Source of the DNA: a virus
Length of the DNA: 21,264 bases
Virus record (IMG/VR): IMGVR_UViG_3300034198_021293
Coordinates: 1-21,264 of that record
Strand: one strand, 5' to 3'
A model generated the notes under the pieces. The model saw only the letters and a program-made list of their open reading frames with translations. It was not told the DNA's origin and did not search any database. Position numbers and translations under genes: made by a program. Within the stretch, counting starts at the first letter, position 1; every line of letters starts with the position of its first letter. Shown here piece by piece: positions 2,590 through 10,341 of the stretch.

Positions 2590-4161
2590 TTATTTATAAT
2601 AAGAGGAATGCATACCTGCAATTAAAGCATAATTGTAGTTTTGGCGACCGTTATTTTCAAGTTTTATCTTCTCATAATGATGGATATCAAATCTAAGAAG
2701 ATCAGAAAGCTGCATATTAGAACGGTGTTTTTCGTAAAAATTACCGCCAACCGAATTTTGATTGACATCATTTGGCCAAATTACGGCTATCCATCTAGTG
2801 CAATAAACTAGCTCTTCCAAAGCATCTATAGCTTCGCTGAGTTTCATGTGTTCTAAAACGTCTATGCACAAAGCCAAGTCATAAATTGTATCATTATACT
2901 TGATTACTTCATCGAAAGTAGCATGAAAAACCTGATTGTAATTTTTTTCTAAATTAAATTCTTTGATATAATTTTGTGTCGGTTCTATTGCTGCAACAAA
3001 AACAGAAGGATATTTTTCTTTAATCATTCTACCGTAATTGCCAGAACCAGCTCCAATGTCTAAAATATGAGAAGGATTCATTTTTTCCAAATCTCTCATA
3101 AGAACATCATCAAATTTACCTACAGATCCAGGCATTTTTTTTATCTCCTCAACTACTTCTTCACTATTTCCGATTTTTGTACCCCATGGAGTTTCTTTAG
3201 GAATTTCTCTTTCTTCTATAGGTACAGTTATAATAGAATATGTTTTTGCTCTCTCATCAAGTGTTTGGTTAATATAATCTACGCCAGAATAATCATAAAA
3301 TTTTTGAAGTTGTTCATTACTTACTGACTTTAAATATTTGTTCCAATAAATGTAAGATTTGTTTACGCCCTCAGCATAATCTTGTTCTGATATTATAGGT
3401 TCAAACCACACCTTTGTTACATAATCATTTGAACCATTAAAATGATATGATGTTATTTCTCTAGGGTGATAGATGTGATACCCAGCTAGAAAAGAAGACA
3501 GTACCATTTTTTGTTCTTCGCCAGAAAAATACATTCTACCATCTGGACCAACATCATAAACCCAATCTGTGTGAGTAAAAAAGTTACCAGCACAAATATG
3601 AATAGCAGGCATAACATCATTCGTACCCTCAACTAAATCACCATGAGCACCAAGTAAATTTAAATTTTTATCATAATCAAAATATTTTACTACAGATGTT
3701 TTTGGTGTAGGATGAGTATGTAAAACTATATTGTCATTTATAATTTCAAAATTTTTACAGGCAGAACTGATAATTATTTTATTTGTGCCACCATGTTTTT
3801 CGCTTGCTATTTTAAAATCTTCAATTAATTTCTCGTCCCAGTTTTGATCAAACTGCATATGAGAATCTATTTGATAGAAATAATCTTCATCTTTTACTTG
3901 TAAAGCATTATTATACCTAGCCCAACCAACACCCATAGTAAATTTGGGATCGATTCTTTTATATCTAATGTCCATTCTTTTAAGTAAATCAGGAGCTTTT
4001 ACTTCAAGACTGTTTTCTAAAGCTGTTTGTTCAAACACCCCAACAAATATTTGTGTATTTGCAGATTTGGTATCATATAAATTACGGATTGTTTTTTCTA
4101 AAAGAGGATCTCTATAAGAAACAACACTAACAAATATCTTATCCATTTTCGTTTTTATCAT
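2590..4161 (-). CDS. GT60-like GlcNAc-transferase fused to a SAM-dependent methyltransferase
   Basis: The 523-aa protein has two enzyme domains. Residues about 8-300 resemble the GT60 / Skp1-hydroxyproline GlcNAc-transferase family (Pfam GlcNAc). Visible motifs are IFVSVVSYRDPLL (9-21), FVGVFEQ (39-45), MGVGWARYNNAL (76-87), YFYQIDSHMQFDQNWDEKLI (94-113, with a DxH metal-site-like motif), HICAGNFF (188-195) and MYFSGEEQKMV (210-220). Residues about 355-520 form a class I methyltransferase: motif I DIGAGSGNYG (368-377), acidic IEP (392-394) and IDVLEHM (433-439). Known GT60 enzymes add GlcNAc to hydroxyproline in Skp1; the phage substrate is unknown. The gene overlaps the preceding one by 23 nt from the first Met; a start at Met6 (4146) cuts this to 8 nt, and neither has a strong ribosome binding site. 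It belongs to the cassette with the hydroxylase at 5596-6177. The methyltransferase could modify the added sugar, but that is inference. Confidence 0.82.
   Translation of the reverse strand: MIKTKMDKIFVSVVSYRDPLLEKTIRNLYDTKSANTQIFVGVFEQTALENSLEVKAPDLLKRMDIRYKRIDPKFTMGVGWARYNNALQVKDEDYFYQIDSHMQFDQNWDEKLIEDFKIASEKHGGTNKIIISSACKNFEIINDNIVLHTHPTPKTSVVKYFDYDKNLNLLGAHGDLVEGTNDVMPAIHICAGNFFTHTDWVYDVGPDGRMYFSGEEQKMVLSSFLAGYHIYHPREITSYHFNGSNDYVTKVWFEPIISEQDYAEGVNKSYIYWNKYLKSVSNEQLQKFYDYSGVDYINQTLDERAKTYSIITVPIEEREIPKETPWGTKIGNSEEVVEEIKKMPGSVGKFDDVLMRDLEKMNPSHILDIGAGSGNYGRMIKEKYPSVFVAAIEPTQNYIKEFNLEKNYNQVFHATFDEVIKYNDTIYDLALCIDVLEHMKLSEAIDALEELVYCTRWIAVIWPNDVNQNSVGGNFYEKHRSNMQLSDLLRFDIHHYEKIKLENNGRQNYNYALIAGMHSSYYK
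2591..2598 (-). promoter_or_regulatory. T4-type late promoter (TATAAATA) before gene 13
   Basis: An exact minus-strand TATAAATA lies 20 nt before the gene 13 ATG. It overlaps the last codons and TAA stop of the upstream glycosyltransferase gene (the Tyr-Lys-stop codons supply the octamer). It would start a late transcript for the neck genes independently of the upstream modification cassette. Confidence 0.7.
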
Positions 4162-4876
4162 CTAAAGATATAGATGTCCTTTTATCAAACATGATGTATT
4201 TTCTATAAAATTGTTTAGTGGTCGAAAAAATTGATTTTGATTTATCAATTTGATAATCATTTGCTGGTCCATAACCTGCTTTTATTTTTTTAGCTTCAAA
4301 AGGTATTACTTGAAGCAATGGTGTTCCTGCAGGTATCGACATTTTACCTGCTCTTTTTGCAGAAAAAATAAAGTTAAGAGAAGTAAAGTTACCATAATCT
4401 ACTATTCCTGGATAAACATATATGTCATCAAGAAATGGTGAATGATAAGGAGCTGGTAATACTAAAGCTGAAATATCTTTATTTTGTATTTCTACACTCC
4501 ATGGACTTCCTACATGCCAAACATCTAATGGTATATCATTTGGCTGAAAAACACCATCAACTATAGTTTGATCCATTTTTCTTGGTGCAAAGAAGTCAGT
4601 TTGTCTATTTCCGCTCATACTTCCAATATAACAAATGGTGCCACTTTTATTTGCCATTATTTCAATATCATCCCAAGCAGGAATAATATAACCATAATTT
4701 CTTAAATCCATAGTTCCAGGGCAATAAGGAAATTTAAATTTTTCATATTTTTTTATCTGATATTCTTGAAAATGGCTAGGTGTATCTTTAGCTAATTGAA
4801 TTGGATGATATTGATATGCTTTTCTAGTAATATCATTGAACCTAATATCAAGTTCTTTTTTCTTAAACAAATTCAT
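4139..4876 (-). CDS. Uncharacterised protein, paralogue of the next gene upstream (GYIIP family)
   Basis: I do not recognise a function. The 245-aa product has no signal peptide or membrane segment. It is a clear paralogue of the protein at 4873-5589. Shared elements in order are YGYIIPAWDDIEI, a hydrophobic SALVLPAPYHSPF segment followed by YVYPGIVDYGNFTSLNF, and IPAGTPLLQVIPFEAK near residue 190. The other copy reads YGYIIPLQGDLHV, STLFVPP, FSGLVDTDKYYKEVNF and LPAGTPLVLAIPVKR. A beta-rich, cupin-like fold is a guess from the spacing of hydrophobic strands and turns. Its ATG overlaps the upstream stop by 4 nt (ATGA), so the two are translationally coupled. It lies between a 2OG oxygenase and a glycosyltransferase, which suggests a role in the same modification or in recognising the modified product. 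A distant relation to the DUF6065 family is possible but uncertain. Confidence 0.75.
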   Translation of the reverse strand: MNLFKKKELDIRFNDITRKAYQYHPIQLAKDTPSHFQEYQIKKYEKFKFPYCPGTMDLRNYGYIIPAWDDIEIMANKSGTICYIGSMSGNRQTDFFAPRKMDQTIVDGVFQPNDIPLDVWHVGSPWSVEIQNKDISALVLPAPYHSPFLDDIYVYPGIVDYGNFTSLNFIFSAKRAGKMSIPAGTPLLQVIPFEAKKIKAGYGPANDYQIDKSKSIFSTTKQFYRKYIMFDKRTSISLDDKNENG

Positions 4877-5589
4877 TTTCTTGGTTCTCTCAATTCTTTA
4901 GAATAATATGAAACTCTAGAATTTTGTGTTTTATCAATCTTTGCTAAAGTTTTTTCTTCCTTTTCAGTCATAGCTCTTATAATTGGATTTTTAACCATAA
5001 TATCGCGCTTAACAGGTATAGCCAAAACTAAAGGAGTGCCAGCAGGAAGCTTATCGTCAAAATTAACAGCATGCCAAATAGCAGGAAAATTGACTTCTTT
5101 GTAATATTTGTCTGTATCAACCAATCCAGAAAAACAAGTGAACGGTTCATTTACTCTGTTTAATGGAGGAACAAAAAGAGTAGACCATCCTGGAGCAGTT
5201 TTTATACACCAATGATTGATAAATTTAAATGGTTTGGTAGGATATCCTGGAGCACTTTTTCCACCAACCTGTTCAAGACTATGAAATTCACAAAGTTTTA
5301 AAGAAGGTGGATCTATAGTTCTTATTACAGATTTGTCAGAATTTGAAATAACATGAAGATCACCCTGAAGCGGAATAATATATCCATAAGACATAGCATC
5401 AAGTAATGGCAAACATTTTTTGGCAGTCATAGCTGGAGAGCCAAACTGATCTTTATCGTTATTTGTATTGGATAATTTTTTCCACCATTCGGGTATATTT
5501 TTATATGCTGGAATTGGTTCTGGAATTACGCCATAAAGTTCTTCACGACAGAAAAATTCTATCACTGGCTTTTCGAACAATGAAAACAT
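4873..5589 (-). CDS. Uncharacterised protein, GYIIP family
   Basis: This 238-aa protein has no function I can assign. It begins MFSLFEKPVIEFFCREELYG, followed by VIPEPIPAYKNIPEWWKKL, a Pro/Trp-rich N-terminal segment that its paralogue at 4139-4876 lacks. The core is shared with the paralogue: LPLLDAMSYGYIIPLQGDLH (about 61-80), WSTLFVPPLNRVNEPF, FSGLVDTDKYYKEVNFPAIW and LPAGTPLVLAIPVKR (about 186-200). I have the impression that similar proteins occur beside 2OG oxygenases in T4-like marine phages, but I cannot verify this. The start follows the oxygenase stop by 6 nt with only a weak GGGG ribosome binding site, and the end overlaps the next gene by 4 nt, so it is part of one translational unit. 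The C-terminal 35 residues are basic and polar. Confidence 0.75.
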   Translation of the reverse strand: MFSLFEKPVIEFFCREELYGVIPEPIPAYKNIPEWWKKLSNTNNDKDQFGSPAMTAKKCLPLLDAMSYGYIIPLQGDLHVISNSDKSVIRTIDPPSLKLCEFHSLEQVGGKSAPGYPTKPFKFINHWCIKTAPGWSTLFVPPLNRVNEPFTCFSGLVDTDKYYKEVNFPAIWHAVNFDDKLPAGTPLVLAIPVKRDIMVKNPIIRAMTEKEEKTLAKIDKTQNSRVSYYSKELREPRK

Positions 5590-5595
5590 AATTTA

Positions 5596-6177
5596 TTAAC
5601 CCCATGGACCTTCTGCCCAAAATACTATTGATTTACGAATACCTGAGGTAACAGGATGAACTTTGTGTGGCATATGAGATGCAAAAAACACAACTTCCCC
5701 TGCATTTGGTTTAAGTTTTACAGATTGTTCAGGATTTCCATTATGAATTACTTCAAGTTCTCCACCTTCGTATTCATCTGGACCAGTTAGTATAATAACA
5801 CCACTGACTTTTCTTTGATAGTCATTATAATGAGAATATTCATCAACATGCCAATCATAATGTTGTTCCATCAATGAATCATATTTTGTATACTGTACTG
5901 CTGGAATACGATTTATGTCATACATGAACAAATCGTAATTTACTTTAGAAGTGATAAATGATATTTTATCGAAAATCCATCTGGCATTTTCGTCAGGTTG
6001 TAACCAAGCAATATTGCTGTCTCTGTGTGTAGTAACTGTTCCGTTTCCTACTTCACCTTTTCTAAAATCAAGAAGTTTTTCTAAAAATAATATTTTTTCA
6101 ATTTCTTCTGGATTAAAAACATCTCTCATAACACCATATTTTACGAAATTTCCATGCACTTTGTTTACATTCATCAT
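5596..6177 (-). CDS. 2OG-Fe(II) oxygenase, PKHD-type (prolyl/lysyl hydroxylase-like)
   Basis: These enzymes hydroxylate proline, lysine or other side chains using 2-oxoglutarate, O2 and Fe(II). In the 193-aa form the iron ligands are H110 and D112 (WHVDEYS) and H171 (MPHKVHPVTSG), and R181 (GIRKSIVFW) would bind 2-oxoglutarate. The strand pattern VSGVIILTGPDEYEGGELEV and the phrase LKPNAGEVVFFASHMPHKVH are typical of the PKHD-type (PiuC-like) subgroup. The frame extends to an ATG at 6201, but ATG 6177 has GGAG 6 nt upstream while 6201 has nothing, so 6177 was chosen; ATG 6174 is equally possible. It follows the repeat protein at 6206-7672 after 28 nt and leads into the paralogue pair and the GT60 fusion. 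A fibre-modifying prolyl hydroxylase is the attractive reading, but the substrate is not shown by the sequence. Confidence 0.9.
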   Translation of the reverse strand: MMNVNKVHGNFVKYGVMRDVFNPEEIEKILFLEKLLDFRKGEVGNGTVTTHRDSNIAWLQPDENARWIFDKISFITSKVNYDLFMYDINRIPAVQYTKYDSLMEQHYDWHVDEYSHYNDYQRKVSGVIILTGPDEYEGGELEVIHNGNPEQSVKLKPNAGEVVFFASHMPHKVHPVTSGIRKSIVFWAEGPWG

Positions 6178-6205
6178 AATGATTCTCCATTCTATATTCA
6201 AAAAA

Positions 6206-7672
6206 TTATTTAGTAATAATTATCACCTGTCCTCCAGTTGCAACCGTAACTGGATAGCTAGCATTGTCTGGGTAAGAATAATAAGATATTTCAGTATTTG
6301 GTGTGGCGGGAACAGGTTGATTGCCTCCTGGACCTCCAGGTAGTGAAACCCCCAAAGCAGATGAAGCATTACCAGCAACCCATGCTGAATAAGTTGCTAC
6401 TGGATATGTTGGTGGATTATATGTGGCTACAGTTGTTGGATTGTAAGTAGCAGTAGGATATGTTGGTGGATTATAATTTGCTATTGGATATGTCGGTGAG
6501 TTATACGTAGCAGCAGTTCCAGCTACTGTGTTATATGTAGCAGGAGTTCCTGCATTATAGGTAGCAGCAGTTCCAGCTACTGTATTATATGTAGCTGCAT
6601 TTCCTGGATTATAATTTGCAGTTCCAGGACTATAATAAGTTACATGAGTTACTGTATATGTTCTATAATCTGTTTGAGTTTGATAATAAAATGGAACATA
6701 ACTGGTAGTAGTGCTATAATTAGTTGTTGGAGCAGTATAAGGACTAGCAGGTCCAGTTCCTGTATTATAGGTAGTATATGCAGTTGATTGACCTGGATAA
6801 GATGGATAGGTTAAAGTATCTATGAAAAAAGCTGAAGTTGCAAAATCTGCTGTATAAGCTTTTACTGAAATAGTTCTAGAACCAGTTGTCGCCTTTCTAT
6901 AATCTTGATATATATTGTCCGAAGCTAAAGATAATGTACCAAGAATAGCAGTAAAAAAATTATCTAATACAGTGTTAAAAGCTGTACCAGCCTGAATTTG
7001 ATCTAGCCAATATTTTAATCCACTTTCATCAGGTGCTCGATTCAAAACATAACAAACTGTACCGCTATATGTTCCAGATTGGATCTGATATGTTCCAGTA
7101 CCTGCCTCACCATAACTCCCATACGATTGGTTAAGAAAAGAACTAGAAACAGTTCCAGTTCCAAAAGTATAACCATATTTTGCATAAAAAACATTATACG
7201 TTGCCACAGTTTGACTATATGAAAACTGATCATAGGTAGCAGTTGTTGTGCTAGAATATGTATTGTAAGTATCTACTGGTGGATTATACGATGAAACAGT
7301 TCTAGGATTGTAAGTAGCTGTAGGATATGTTGGTGGGTTATATGTAGCAACTGTTCTGGGATTGTAAGTAGCTGTAGGATATGTTGGTGGGTTATATGTA
7401 GCACCAGTTCCAGCTACTGTGTTATAATTTGCAGTTCCAGGTGTTTTATTATAAGTTGCTGGAGTAGTAGAATTATACGTAGCAGCAGTTCCAGGTGTTG
7501 TATTATAAGTTGCTGGGTTACCACCAGAACCTGTACCACCTGTACCACTTACGTAAATATTTTGTTTACCATAATTCATAGTAAATGTTCCAGGAGCATT
7601 GAACGTCTGTGTTCCTACTCCTGTCGCACGCCAAGTTTTTTCTAATTCAAATTTACTTCCACCGATTGGCAT
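6206..7672 (-). CDS. Tyr-Asn/Pro repeat virion protein with a DUF4214-like segment (likely fibre or adhesin)
   Basis: The 488-aa protein starts with a non-repetitive head, including FNAPGTFTMNYGKQNIYVSG (24-43) and a Gly-rich stretch. It then has two arrays of short units ending in TYN or NYN, at residues 54-160 and 350-428, with the recurring longer unit YNPPTYPTATYNPRTV. Between the arrays lies a different region with VLNRAPDESGLKYWLDQIQA (209-228) and AFNTVLDNFF (231-240), which matches the DUF4214 pattern of large adhesins and S-layer-like proteins. The tail is Gly/Pro-rich (LPGGPGGNQPVPATPN) and ends GGQVIIITK. Composition is extreme, dominated by T, Y, N, P, A, G and S. The gene is last in the fibre run and directly precedes the hydroxylase, which makes it the natural candidate substrate. 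A role in host attachment is inferred from position and composition only. Confidence 0.75.
   Translation of the reverse strand: MPIGGSKFELEKTWRATGVGTQTFNAPGTFTMNYGKQNIYVSGTGGTGSGGNPATYNTTPGTAATYNSTTPATYNKTPGTANYNTVAGTGATYNPPTYPTATYNPRTVATYNPPTYPTATYNPRTVSSYNPPVDTYNTYSSTTTATYDQFSYSQTVATYNVFYAKYGYTFGTGTVSSSFLNQSYGSYGEAGTGTYQIQSGTYSGTVCYVLNRAPDESGLKYWLDQIQAGTAFNTVLDNFFTAILGTLSLASDNIYQDYRKATTGSRTISVKAYTADFATSAFFIDTLTYPSYPGQSTAYTTYNTGTGPASPYTAPTTNYSTTTSYVPFYYQTQTDYRTYTVTHVTYYSPGTANYNPGNAATYNTVAGTAATYNAGTPATYNTVAGTAATYNSPTYPIANYNPPTYPTATYNPTTVATYNPPTYPVATYSAWVAGNASSALGVSLPGGPGGNQPVPATPNTEISYYSYPDNASYPVTVATGGQVIIITK
6389..6625 (-). repeat. C-terminal Tyr-Asn repeat array of the 488-aa protein
   Basis: It encodes residues about 350-428: units such as GTANYNPGNAATYN, TVAGTAATYN (twice) and YNPPTYPTATYNPTTVATYN. 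The DNA shows the same words, for example repeated minus-strand TATCCAACATATCC-like blocks, and resembles the array at 7193-7513 so closely that recombination between them is plausible. Confidence 0.85.
7193..7513 (-). repeat. N-terminal Tyr-Asn repeat array of the 488-aa protein
   Basis: It encodes residues about 54-160, including two consecutive copies of YNPPTYPTATYNPRTV (93-108 and 111-126) with almost identical DNA (48-54 nt period). The units TVAGTGATYN and GTANYN recur in the C-terminal array, so one array probably arose by copying from the other. Confidence 0.85.
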
Positions 7673-9961: not shown

Positions 9962-9990
9962 TATATTGTAAAAGAAAAATGGAGTATGTT

Positions 9991-10341
9991 ATGATTGTCG
10001 ACAAGGGATGGGGTAAAGAAACTGTATTTGCTACTAACGAGTTATATGCTGGTAAGTTTTTAGAGTTTGCAAAGTCTGGTAGTAGAACCAGCATGCAGTT
10101 CCACAAAGATAAAGATAAAACTTTGGTGGTTATTGAGGGTGCATTTAAACTAACTCTGATTAAAACAGAAAATGCATCGTATGAAGAAACTATATTACGC
10201 AAAGGAGATGTTTTCAGAATATCTCCACTATTGCCACATCAGCTAGAGTCTCTTGAAGAAAATTCAACTATCATTGAAGTTTCTACTGCAGATAATGTAT
10301 ATGATACTTATCGAGTTATTCCTGGAGATTCACAGTTATAA
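9991..10341 (+). CDS. Small cupin protein (sugar isomerase-like), plus strand
   Basis: The 116-aa single-domain protein has the conserved cupin course: KGWGKETVF near the N-terminus, motif 1 region SRTSMQFHKDKDKTLVVIEG and motif 2 region GDVFRISPLLPHQLES, ending TYRVIPGDSQL. It resembles mannose-6-phosphate isomerase-like and sugar-nucleotide cupins. Motif 1 keeps QxH, as in phosphomannose isomerases, but the usual Glu is Lys or Thr; motif 2 keeps its His. The metal site may therefore be weakened and catalysis is uncertain. ATG 9991 was chosen over 9979 because GGAG lies 6 nt before it; 9979 lacks one and is only about 18 nt past the -10 box. The gene is the only one on this strand, has its own promoter, and abuts the convergent stop at 10342 with no gap. 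A role in sugar metabolism for surface or virion glycans is inference. Confidence 0.82.
   Translation: MIVDKGWGKETVFATNELYAGKFLEFAKSGSRTSMQFHKDKDKTLVVIEGAFKLTLIKTENASYEETILRKGDVFRISPLLPHQLESLEENSTIIEVSTADNVYDTYRVIPGDSQL

Follow-up and report, generated by a model that had tools for sequence, protein, structure and literature searches.

Does this phage hydroxylate and then glycosylate one of its own fibre proteins, or do the enzymes encoded beside that protein serve another purpose? The window (the whole 21,264-nucleotide stretch of viral DNA that was analysed) carries five adjacent genes on its minus strand, namely REP, OXY, DUFa, DUFb, and a GT60-methyltransferase fusion. The genes are tightly packed on that one strand: two neighbouring pairs are separated by 28 and 6 bp, and the other two overlap by 4 and 23 bp. 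They contain the following features:

6206..7672, minus strand: REP, a fibre-like protein of 488 aa and the putative substrate, with orthologues in all cassettes
7058..7507 (approximate), minus strand: REP repeat block 1, ATYNPPTYPTATYNPRTV type (residues 56-205; sequence and repeat composition)
6953..7048, minus strand: DUF4214 match within REP, residues 209-240 (PF13946, E 2.9e-5)
6398..6640 (approximate), minus strand: REP repeat block 2 (residues 345-425; sequence)
5596..6177, minus strand: OXY, a 2OG-Fe(II) oxygenase, PKHD/P4H-like (PF13640, E 6.7e-19)
4873..5589, minus strand: DUFa, a DUF6065/phrog_7084 protein (phrog_7084, E 8.5e-54, 183.6 bits; PF19541, E 1.1e-6)
4139..4876, minus strand: DUFb, a divergent DUFa paralogue (phrog_7084, E 7.2e-20, 72.5 bits)
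3202..4161, minus strand: GT60 domain, residues ~1-320 (PF11397, E 2.7e-27), with a DSH motif and a conserved AGNFF (alignment A4)
2590..3201, minus strand: class I SAM-methyltransferase domain, C-terminal to GT60 (PF08242, E 3.5e-7; PF13489, E 7.6e-7)

The original prediction had placed a GT60-like glycosyltransferase at 2590-4161 and a PKHD-type 2OG-Fe(II) hydroxylase at 5596-6177 in one tight unit just behind a repeat protein, and these identifications held. The window GT60 reached 96.6 bits with PF11397, whose cut-off is 21 (the GT60 of locus L009 reached 92.7 bits), and the solved proteins nearest to OXY in a profile search were PKHD-type hydroxylases (E 1.6e-12), followed by prolyl 4-hydroxylases (P4Hs; E 2e-7 and weaker). 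What had been overlooked were DUFa and DUFb, two DUF6065/phrog_7084 paralogues between OXY and GT60, as well as the methyltransferase domain fused to GT60 and the weak DUF4214 match in REP. Immediately downstream of the cassette, profile matches identified gp13 and gp14, which are neck/adaptor proteins and indicate a T4-like context.

Many divergent tailed phages have this cassette, and it is widespread among contigs of environmental phages. Our unit of counting was the cluster of non-halovirus, main-copy DUFa proteins from environmental phages (<80% identity), of which there were 30. The order REP-OXY-DUFa-DUFb-GT60 recurs among them: OXY was present in 30/30 clusters, an adjacent DUFb in 28/30, and GT60 in 22/30, while REP was found in all 30, three of them by inspection. 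An independent search with REP found OXY adjacent in 18/18 loci. The proposed co-occurrence of oxygenase, GT60, and repeat protein was therefore borne out in these orthologues. Since a median of 47-60% of cassette-protein residues differ between clusters, the gene order appears to have been kept over long divergence, and distances among the cassette genes were correlated (r 0.64-0.77). Single-protein scans of IMG/VR with OXY and DUFa gave no matches, and alignment queries were needed. A T7-type portal had no match anywhere in records lacking a T4 portal, which was uninformative. A search of 12 large records for psbA gave no match, and a cyanobacterial host is therefore unsupported in their case.

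The repeats of the window REP consist of Tyr, Asn, Thr, and Pro, and TYN occurs 16 times vs. 0.9 expected (maximum 4 among 1000 shuffles). AlphaFold modelling, which had been suggested as a check, gave an AF2 pLDDT of 85-97 over most of residues ~21-50 and ~425-488 and of 26-40 over most of the repeats; the repeats are thus predicted to be disordered between confident terminal strands. In this model, REP would be one beta domain whose N- and C-terminal halves flank the disordered repeats. The DUF4214 match was weak (PF13946, 24.5 bits, cut-off 23.2), its helices were modelled at pLDDT 45-62, and a PDB search with the REP model gave nothing useful. REPs were longer in cassettes with GT60 than in those without (median 609 vs. 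288 aa, p 4e-5, not tree-corrected), and [YF]N was commoner in the REPs of GT60-bearing cassettes (p 1e-4, also not tree-corrected). The REPs of L044, L103, and L105 are nearly repeat-free, yet OXY-DUFa-DUFb are kept beside them, indicating that the repeats are not the sole possible OXY substrate. Collagen-like proteins lie near some cassettes (L004, L038, L082) and were considered as OXY substrates, but they were rejected as a general one because there are none in the window.

We consider it probable that the five genes form a virion-fibre modification cassette, performing oxidation and then, optionally, glycosylation, methylation, or sulfation. Judging from gene context and modelling, REP would be a fibre-tip-like protein, presumably on the virion, with a folded beta domain and a long disordered Asn-rich insert. 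OXY would hydroxylate side chains in the repeats, and GT60, where present, would add a sugar to the new hydroxyls, probably HexNAc from a UDP donor as its family suggests. This sugar could then be methylated by the window's fused methyltransferase or sulfated elsewhere by sulfotransferase-like neighbours, and the surface in contact with the host would be masked or diversified by such decoration. DUFa and DUFb, both with a predicted dUTPase-like fold, probably act with OXY, for example by forming a hetero-oligomer in which the substrate is held or processed further, although this is the weakest step. Modification of DNA or of the host surface is possible, but less likely than that of the fibre.

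The hydroxylation and glycosylation of a fibre that had been proposed gains from the longer, more repetitive REPs found with GT60. Its prolyl part is not supported, and the distant OXY relatives of cultured cyanophages, though close to fibre genes, have no annotated GT60 as a neighbour. Phage glycosyltransferases have been proposed to decorate virion proteins in mycobacteriophage Che8 and Xanthomonas phage XacN1 as well, but no oxygenase cassette has been reported for either. XacN1, in which proteomic analysis found at least two glycoproteins (PMC5852040), encodes a distant GT60 relative (ORF334), next to which neither OXY nor DUFa/b has a match. Hydroxylate-then-glycosylate chemistry in two steps has until now been described chiefly in eukaryotes; if our reading is true, phages apply a pathway like those of Skp1 and plant extensins to their own host-contact fibre.

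Which residue would carry the sugar is a separate matter. In a narrower version of the fibre pathway, modelled on Skp1, OXY would make 4-hydroxyproline in REP and GT60 would add GlcNAc to it. The enzyme pair equals PhyA and Gnt1 of Dictyostelium and Toxoplasma (PMC6939170), a 2OG-Fe(II) hydroxylase and a GT60 polypeptide glycosyltransferase; prolyl 4-hydroxylases are among the OXY profile matches, and at 9-25% Pro is a common residue in most REP repeats. However, the repeats of L076 and L053 contain only 4-6% Pro, and Pro-free runs of 62-78 residues occur in those of L076, L079, and L086, with OXY and GT60 kept in each case. The L076 repeats, at 4% Pro and 29% Asn, include a Pro-free run of 62 residues. 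OXY itself resembles PKHD enzymes more closely than it does P4Hs. It has the iron triad and basic 2OG-binding residue (HxD with H110 and D112, H171, R181), of which H110, D112, and R181 are invariant and H171 nearly so in alignment A2, the latter being missing from the second OXY copies of L004 and L005. Ten positions past the distal His, the same alignment has Arg in OXY, where P4Hs have Lys. The closest solved structures are PKHD-type hydroxylases (YbiX/PiuC, PRK05467), but OXY matches NCBIfam PRK05467 below its equivalog cut-off. PF13640 enzymes as a family act on many different substrates.

Hydroxyproline as the product is therefore not favoured, although different phages may have different OXY substrates, and we regard the Skp1-like version as doubtful. 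The analogy stands insofar as a hydroxylase, a GT60, and a candidate substrate co-occur. It falls short in that the two DUF6065 proteins are unexplained and a GT60 need not act on hydroxyproline; the Skp1 pathway is also eukaryotic and acts at a single site on Skp1, whereas the phage cassette pairs a PKHD-type oxygenase with a repeat fibre protein and probably uses another or mixed acceptor residue. By contrast, most repeat arrays have Asn as their most evenly spaced residue, and its retention across orthologue REPs is more consistent than that of Pro, Tyr, Thr/Ser, or Gly. Because Asn persists where Pro is nearly absent, a hydroxy-Asn acceptor appears at least as likely as hydroxy-Pro on sequence grounds. 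Asn-free runs of 32 residues in L051 and 46 in the second REP of L005 are counter-examples, and the Asn richness of the repeats may instead be structural. Our more specific suggestion, that OXY and the DUF6065 pair hydroxylate Asn all along the disordered repeat and GT60 caps the hydroxy-Asn with a sugar, which in some cases is methylated or sulfated, is a tentative one. If true, O-glycosylated hydroxy-Asn would be a new protein modification.

GT60 could also act directly on Thr/Ser (or Tyr) of REP, with OXY and the DUF6065 pair working separately and sharing the locus as late fibre genes. Characterized GT60 members have polypeptide acceptors, and the family includes a polypeptide alpha-GlcNAc transferase of Trypanosoma cruzi with an implied role in O-glycosylation of the mucin type (PMC6939170), so the presence of GT60 does not imply hydroxyproline. 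Thr makes up 20% of the window REP. Still, cassette-clade GT60 never occurred without OXY, DUFa, and DUFb in loci with enough flank, and Thr/Ser-free runs of 27-69 residues interrupt the REP repeats of some GT60 cassettes, which makes direct glycosylation unlikely. We know of no oxygenase step for the T. cruzi enzyme, which resembles the cassette GT60 in CAZy family and polypeptide acceptor. A PDB search with the GT60 profile gave no match. The methyltransferase match lies at about residues 361-452 of the fusion protein (profile search), and this extension is limited to the window GT60, being absent from every other GT60 in alignment A4. In other phages, sulfotransferase-like genes adjoin the cassettes.

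DUFa and DUFb bear on a nucleic-acid role, in which the oxygenase, glycosyltransferase, and dUTPase-fold proteins would produce a base or nucleotide that is hydroxylated and glycosylated, as with base J or hydroxymethyl pyrimidines. DUFa matches Pfam DUF6065 (PF19541, 28.7 bits, cut-off 26.6), while DUFb matches only PHROG 7084 and not the Pfam profile; profile comparison between them (probability 98%, E 1.5e-13) identifies the two as paralogues. Foldseek matched the DUFa model (AF2 pLDDT 79.8) to dUTPase/dCTP deaminase with prob 1.0, a best E of 5.6e-5, and TMt values of up to 0.71; locally, a GLVDTDxY motif is similar to dUTPase motif 3. However, no RGxGGFGSTG motif was seen in DUFa, its profile had no match in the PDB, and hhalign of the DUFa/DUFb profiles against 6 bacterial dUTPases was not significant (probability below 2%), so we limit the predicted relationship to the level of the fold. 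In haloviruses (Haloferacalesvirus, HF1/HF2 group), DUF6065 shares 36-42% identity with DUFa over most of its length and stands as a single copy near adhesin genes, with no match to OXY or GT60. Its solitary position beside ribonucleotide reductase in these viruses suggests a nucleotide role. A freshwater pelagimyophage 2OGFeDO protein has likewise been interpreted as nucleic-acid modifying (PMC7029224). Yet the profile search placed OXY in PF13640 and P4H-like families related to it and reported no TET/JBP match, characterized GT60 members modify polypeptides, every cassette includes REP, the presence of GT60 goes with REP length, and the dUTPase similarity is absent at sequence level. We therefore think a nucleic-acid module improbable. 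Bacterial context could not explain the DUFa/DUFb pair, as the one canonical DUF6065 member among 396 genomes of one phylum came from a genome without a PF13640 oxygenase. Across cassettes, DUF6065 is more constant than GT60. If the fibre reading is true, DUF6065 gains its first functional setting, and under the proposed Asn chemistry, dUTPase-fold proteins of the DUF6065 family would for the first time serve to modify a protein.

Least probable of all is that the enzymes modify host-surface polysaccharide or protein to block superinfection, which is how glycosyltransferases in the host-recognition clusters of pelagimyophages are usually read (PMC7029224), since profile searches found no recognizable membrane or lipid-carrier enzyme among the five cassette proteins, the cassette is fixed to REP, and its glycosyltransferase is of polypeptide type. 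Fibre modification, if true, would also offer an alternative reading for some marine-phage oxygenase and glycosyltransferase genes now explained as DNA or LPS modification.

The window, an entire IMG/VR virus record of 21,264 bases, is from a T4-like phage, with neck/adaptor proteins at left, fibre-like proteins at right, and genes on the minus strand nearly throughout. A cassette transcribed in the order REP, OXY, DUFa, DUFb, GT60-MT, and then gp13 was resolved among these features:

362-985, gp14 neck/adaptor protein
1830-2570, gp13 neck/adaptor protein
7672-6206, minus strand, REP, a fibre-like repeat protein and putative substrate
6177-5596, minus strand, OXY, a PKHD-type 2OG-Fe(II) oxygenase
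5589-4873, minus strand, DUFa, a DUF6065/phrog_7084 protein
4876-4139, minus strand, DUFb, its paralogue
4161-2590, minus strand, GT60-MT, a GT60 glycosyltransferase fused to a methyltransferase

Gaps of 28 bp (REP-OXY) and 6 bp (OXY-DUFa) are followed by overlaps of 4 and 23 bp and a 19-bp gap before gp13. The original prediction correctly recognized REP, OXY, and GT60, which we confirm are neighbours, but overlooked DUFa, DUFb, the fused methyltransferase, and a weak DUF4214 match in REP. A homing endonuclease-like gene (1105-1785; phrog_314, NUMOD3) separates gp13 from gp14, and such genes similarly adjoin gp13/gp14 in L044, L045, and L054. A single plus-strand cupin (9979-10341; phrog_7851, labelled cysteine dioxygenase) lies amid minus-strand fibre genes.

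Linkage of the cassette genes was strongly supported. All five types of IMG/VR query (GT60, REP, DUFb, and the DUFa and GT60 alignments) converged on the order REP-OXY-DUFa-DUFb-GT60, and DUFa proteins formed 34 groups at 80% identity, 33 of which were flanked by two or more genes on either side. With the two haloviruses and a second copy set aside, OXY lay one or two genes upstream of DUFa in 30/30 clusters, DUFb was directly next to DUFa in 28, and GT60 was present in 22; REP was scored by profile in 27 and assigned by inspection and composition in L110, L111, and L135. A REP tip-domain search recovered 18 loci, all with OXY adjacent; because these contigs were already in our set, the search, at its sensitivity, gave no REP separate from the cassette. 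Since every search was seeded from the window's relatives, these loci represent a family rather than a random phage sample. A T4-type portal occurred in 12 of 18 records tested and was absent from six, fragments among them. Between groups, a median 47-60% of cassette protein residues differ. Distance matrices correlated at r 0.64-0.77 within the cassette vs. 0.27-0.68 against gp13/gp14 (6-11 loci); thus, co-inheritance is clear, while movement as one unit is unproven.

We consider fibre modification, with somewhat better than even confidence, the best explanation of the cassette. REP orthologues share N-terminal (KTWRASGTGTxTFNxxGNxxIPYGR) and C-terminal (SYYSYPDNATYPVTVPxGG) segments flanking a highly variable repeat region. 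AlphaFold2 predicted beta strands over most of residues 21-50 and 425-488 (pLDDT 85-97), low confidence for most repeats (26-40), and helices of moderate confidence where DUF4214 matches, so the simplest reading of the model would be a single beta domain interrupted by a long, flexible insertion. OXY retains HxD (110, 112), H171, and R181; PKHD-type hydroxylases lie nearest to it (E 1.6e-12) and prolyl 4-hydroxylases further away. The proposed prolyl hydroxylation was unsupported, as L076 repeats are nearly proline-free (Pro 4%, Pro-free run of 62 residues) and Pro-free runs reach 76-78 in L086 and L079. A dozen arrays hold about 0-3% Gly, and Tyr is down to 0-2% in L015, L079, L086, and L069, with Phe in its place. 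Closely spaced Asn makes up 13-30% of nearly all arrays, the exceptions being L051 (Asn-free run 32), the polyproline second REP of L005 (46), and the short repeats of L111 (6% Asn). Were a single type of residue modified throughout, composition would favour Asn, a correlation that could be structural. The REP-like paralogue at L005:5760-7688 ends in long polyproline and polyglycine runs, and L004, L038, and L082 encode long collagen-like GPQGPSG repeat proteins near the cassette.

GT60 presence was tied to longer, [YF]N-richer REP. Across 29 clusters with usable REP (21 with GT60, 8 without), median length was 609 vs. 288 aa (p 4e-5) and [YF]N was commoner with GT60 (p 1e-4), both uncorrected for kinship. 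This association is only suggestive because of that relatedness and because totals at some GT60 loci sum two REP proteins; still, REP remained longer with GT60 when each locus contributed a single REP (p 0.001, 21 vs. 6). GT60 hits PF11397 and carries the conserved motifs DSH and AGNFF. Characterized GT60 enzymes have polypeptide acceptors: Gnt1 modifies hydroxyproline of Skp1, and a Trypanosoma cruzi enzyme has been linked to O-glycosylation of the mucin type (PMC6939170). The window's GT60 is the only one of 17 aligned to carry the methyltransferase fusion (2590-3201); related methyltransferases stand alone in L026-L031 and L042. Sulfotransferase-like genes, called by motif, lie near the cassette in 6/30 clusters, and all three proteins tested (L112, L044, L076) matched PF03567. 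In L034, L035, L037, and L112, where GT60 was not found, OXY and DUFa are separated by a gene of this kind (L035 and L037 by motif alone; the L034 motif call without Pfam support). This pattern is consistent with decorating enzymes that can replace one another, but genes in a variable fibre region may also cluster by chance.

In layout, the cassette resembles the hydroxylation-glycosylation pathway of Skp1, but assignment to it by analogy is not proven because proline is doubtful and acceptor and reaction order are putative. Phage virion glycosylation has precedents in Che8, as cited in PMC11256854, and in XacN1 glycoproteins (PMC5852040).

Nucleotide modification is kept alive as a rival role by the predicted dUTPase-like fold of DUFa (pLDDT 80), whose Foldseek matches were dUTPases and dCTP deaminases (prob 1.0, E 5.6e-5; TM up to 0.71 by target). 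Sequence profile comparison did not reveal this relationship, its sole local alignment placing GLVDTDxYxxEV opposite dUTPase motif 3 (GTIDSDYRGEV). Profile comparison shows DUFa and DUFb to be homologues (probability 98%, E 1.5e-13), and DUF6065 was mentioned in no paper of the literature searched. In Haloferacalesvirus (L002, L003; haloarchaeal tailed viruses), a DUFa orthologue (~40% identity) adjoins ribonucleotide reductase and has adhesin genes nearby, with the rest of the cassette absent. OXY-DUFa is the most constant pair, persisting in L082 and L111, which lack DUFb, and L086, L094, L097, L188, and relatives carry a second such pair on the opposite strand, ~8 genes from the main cassette. 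We infer that DUFa and DUFb work with OXY, as a putative scaffold or enzyme.

According to a study of freshwater SAR11 myophages (PMC7029224), their unique genes include one for a desaturase and one for a 2OGFeDO protein, the latter interpreted as acting on nucleic acids. By eye, L009 and L020 also have a desaturase-like ORF close to the cassette, so some of our contigs may be such phages. L196 (DOMR01000007.1), binned in a Chitinophagaceae MAG, carries this phage cassette, reflecting a prophage, an infecting phage, or a binning error.
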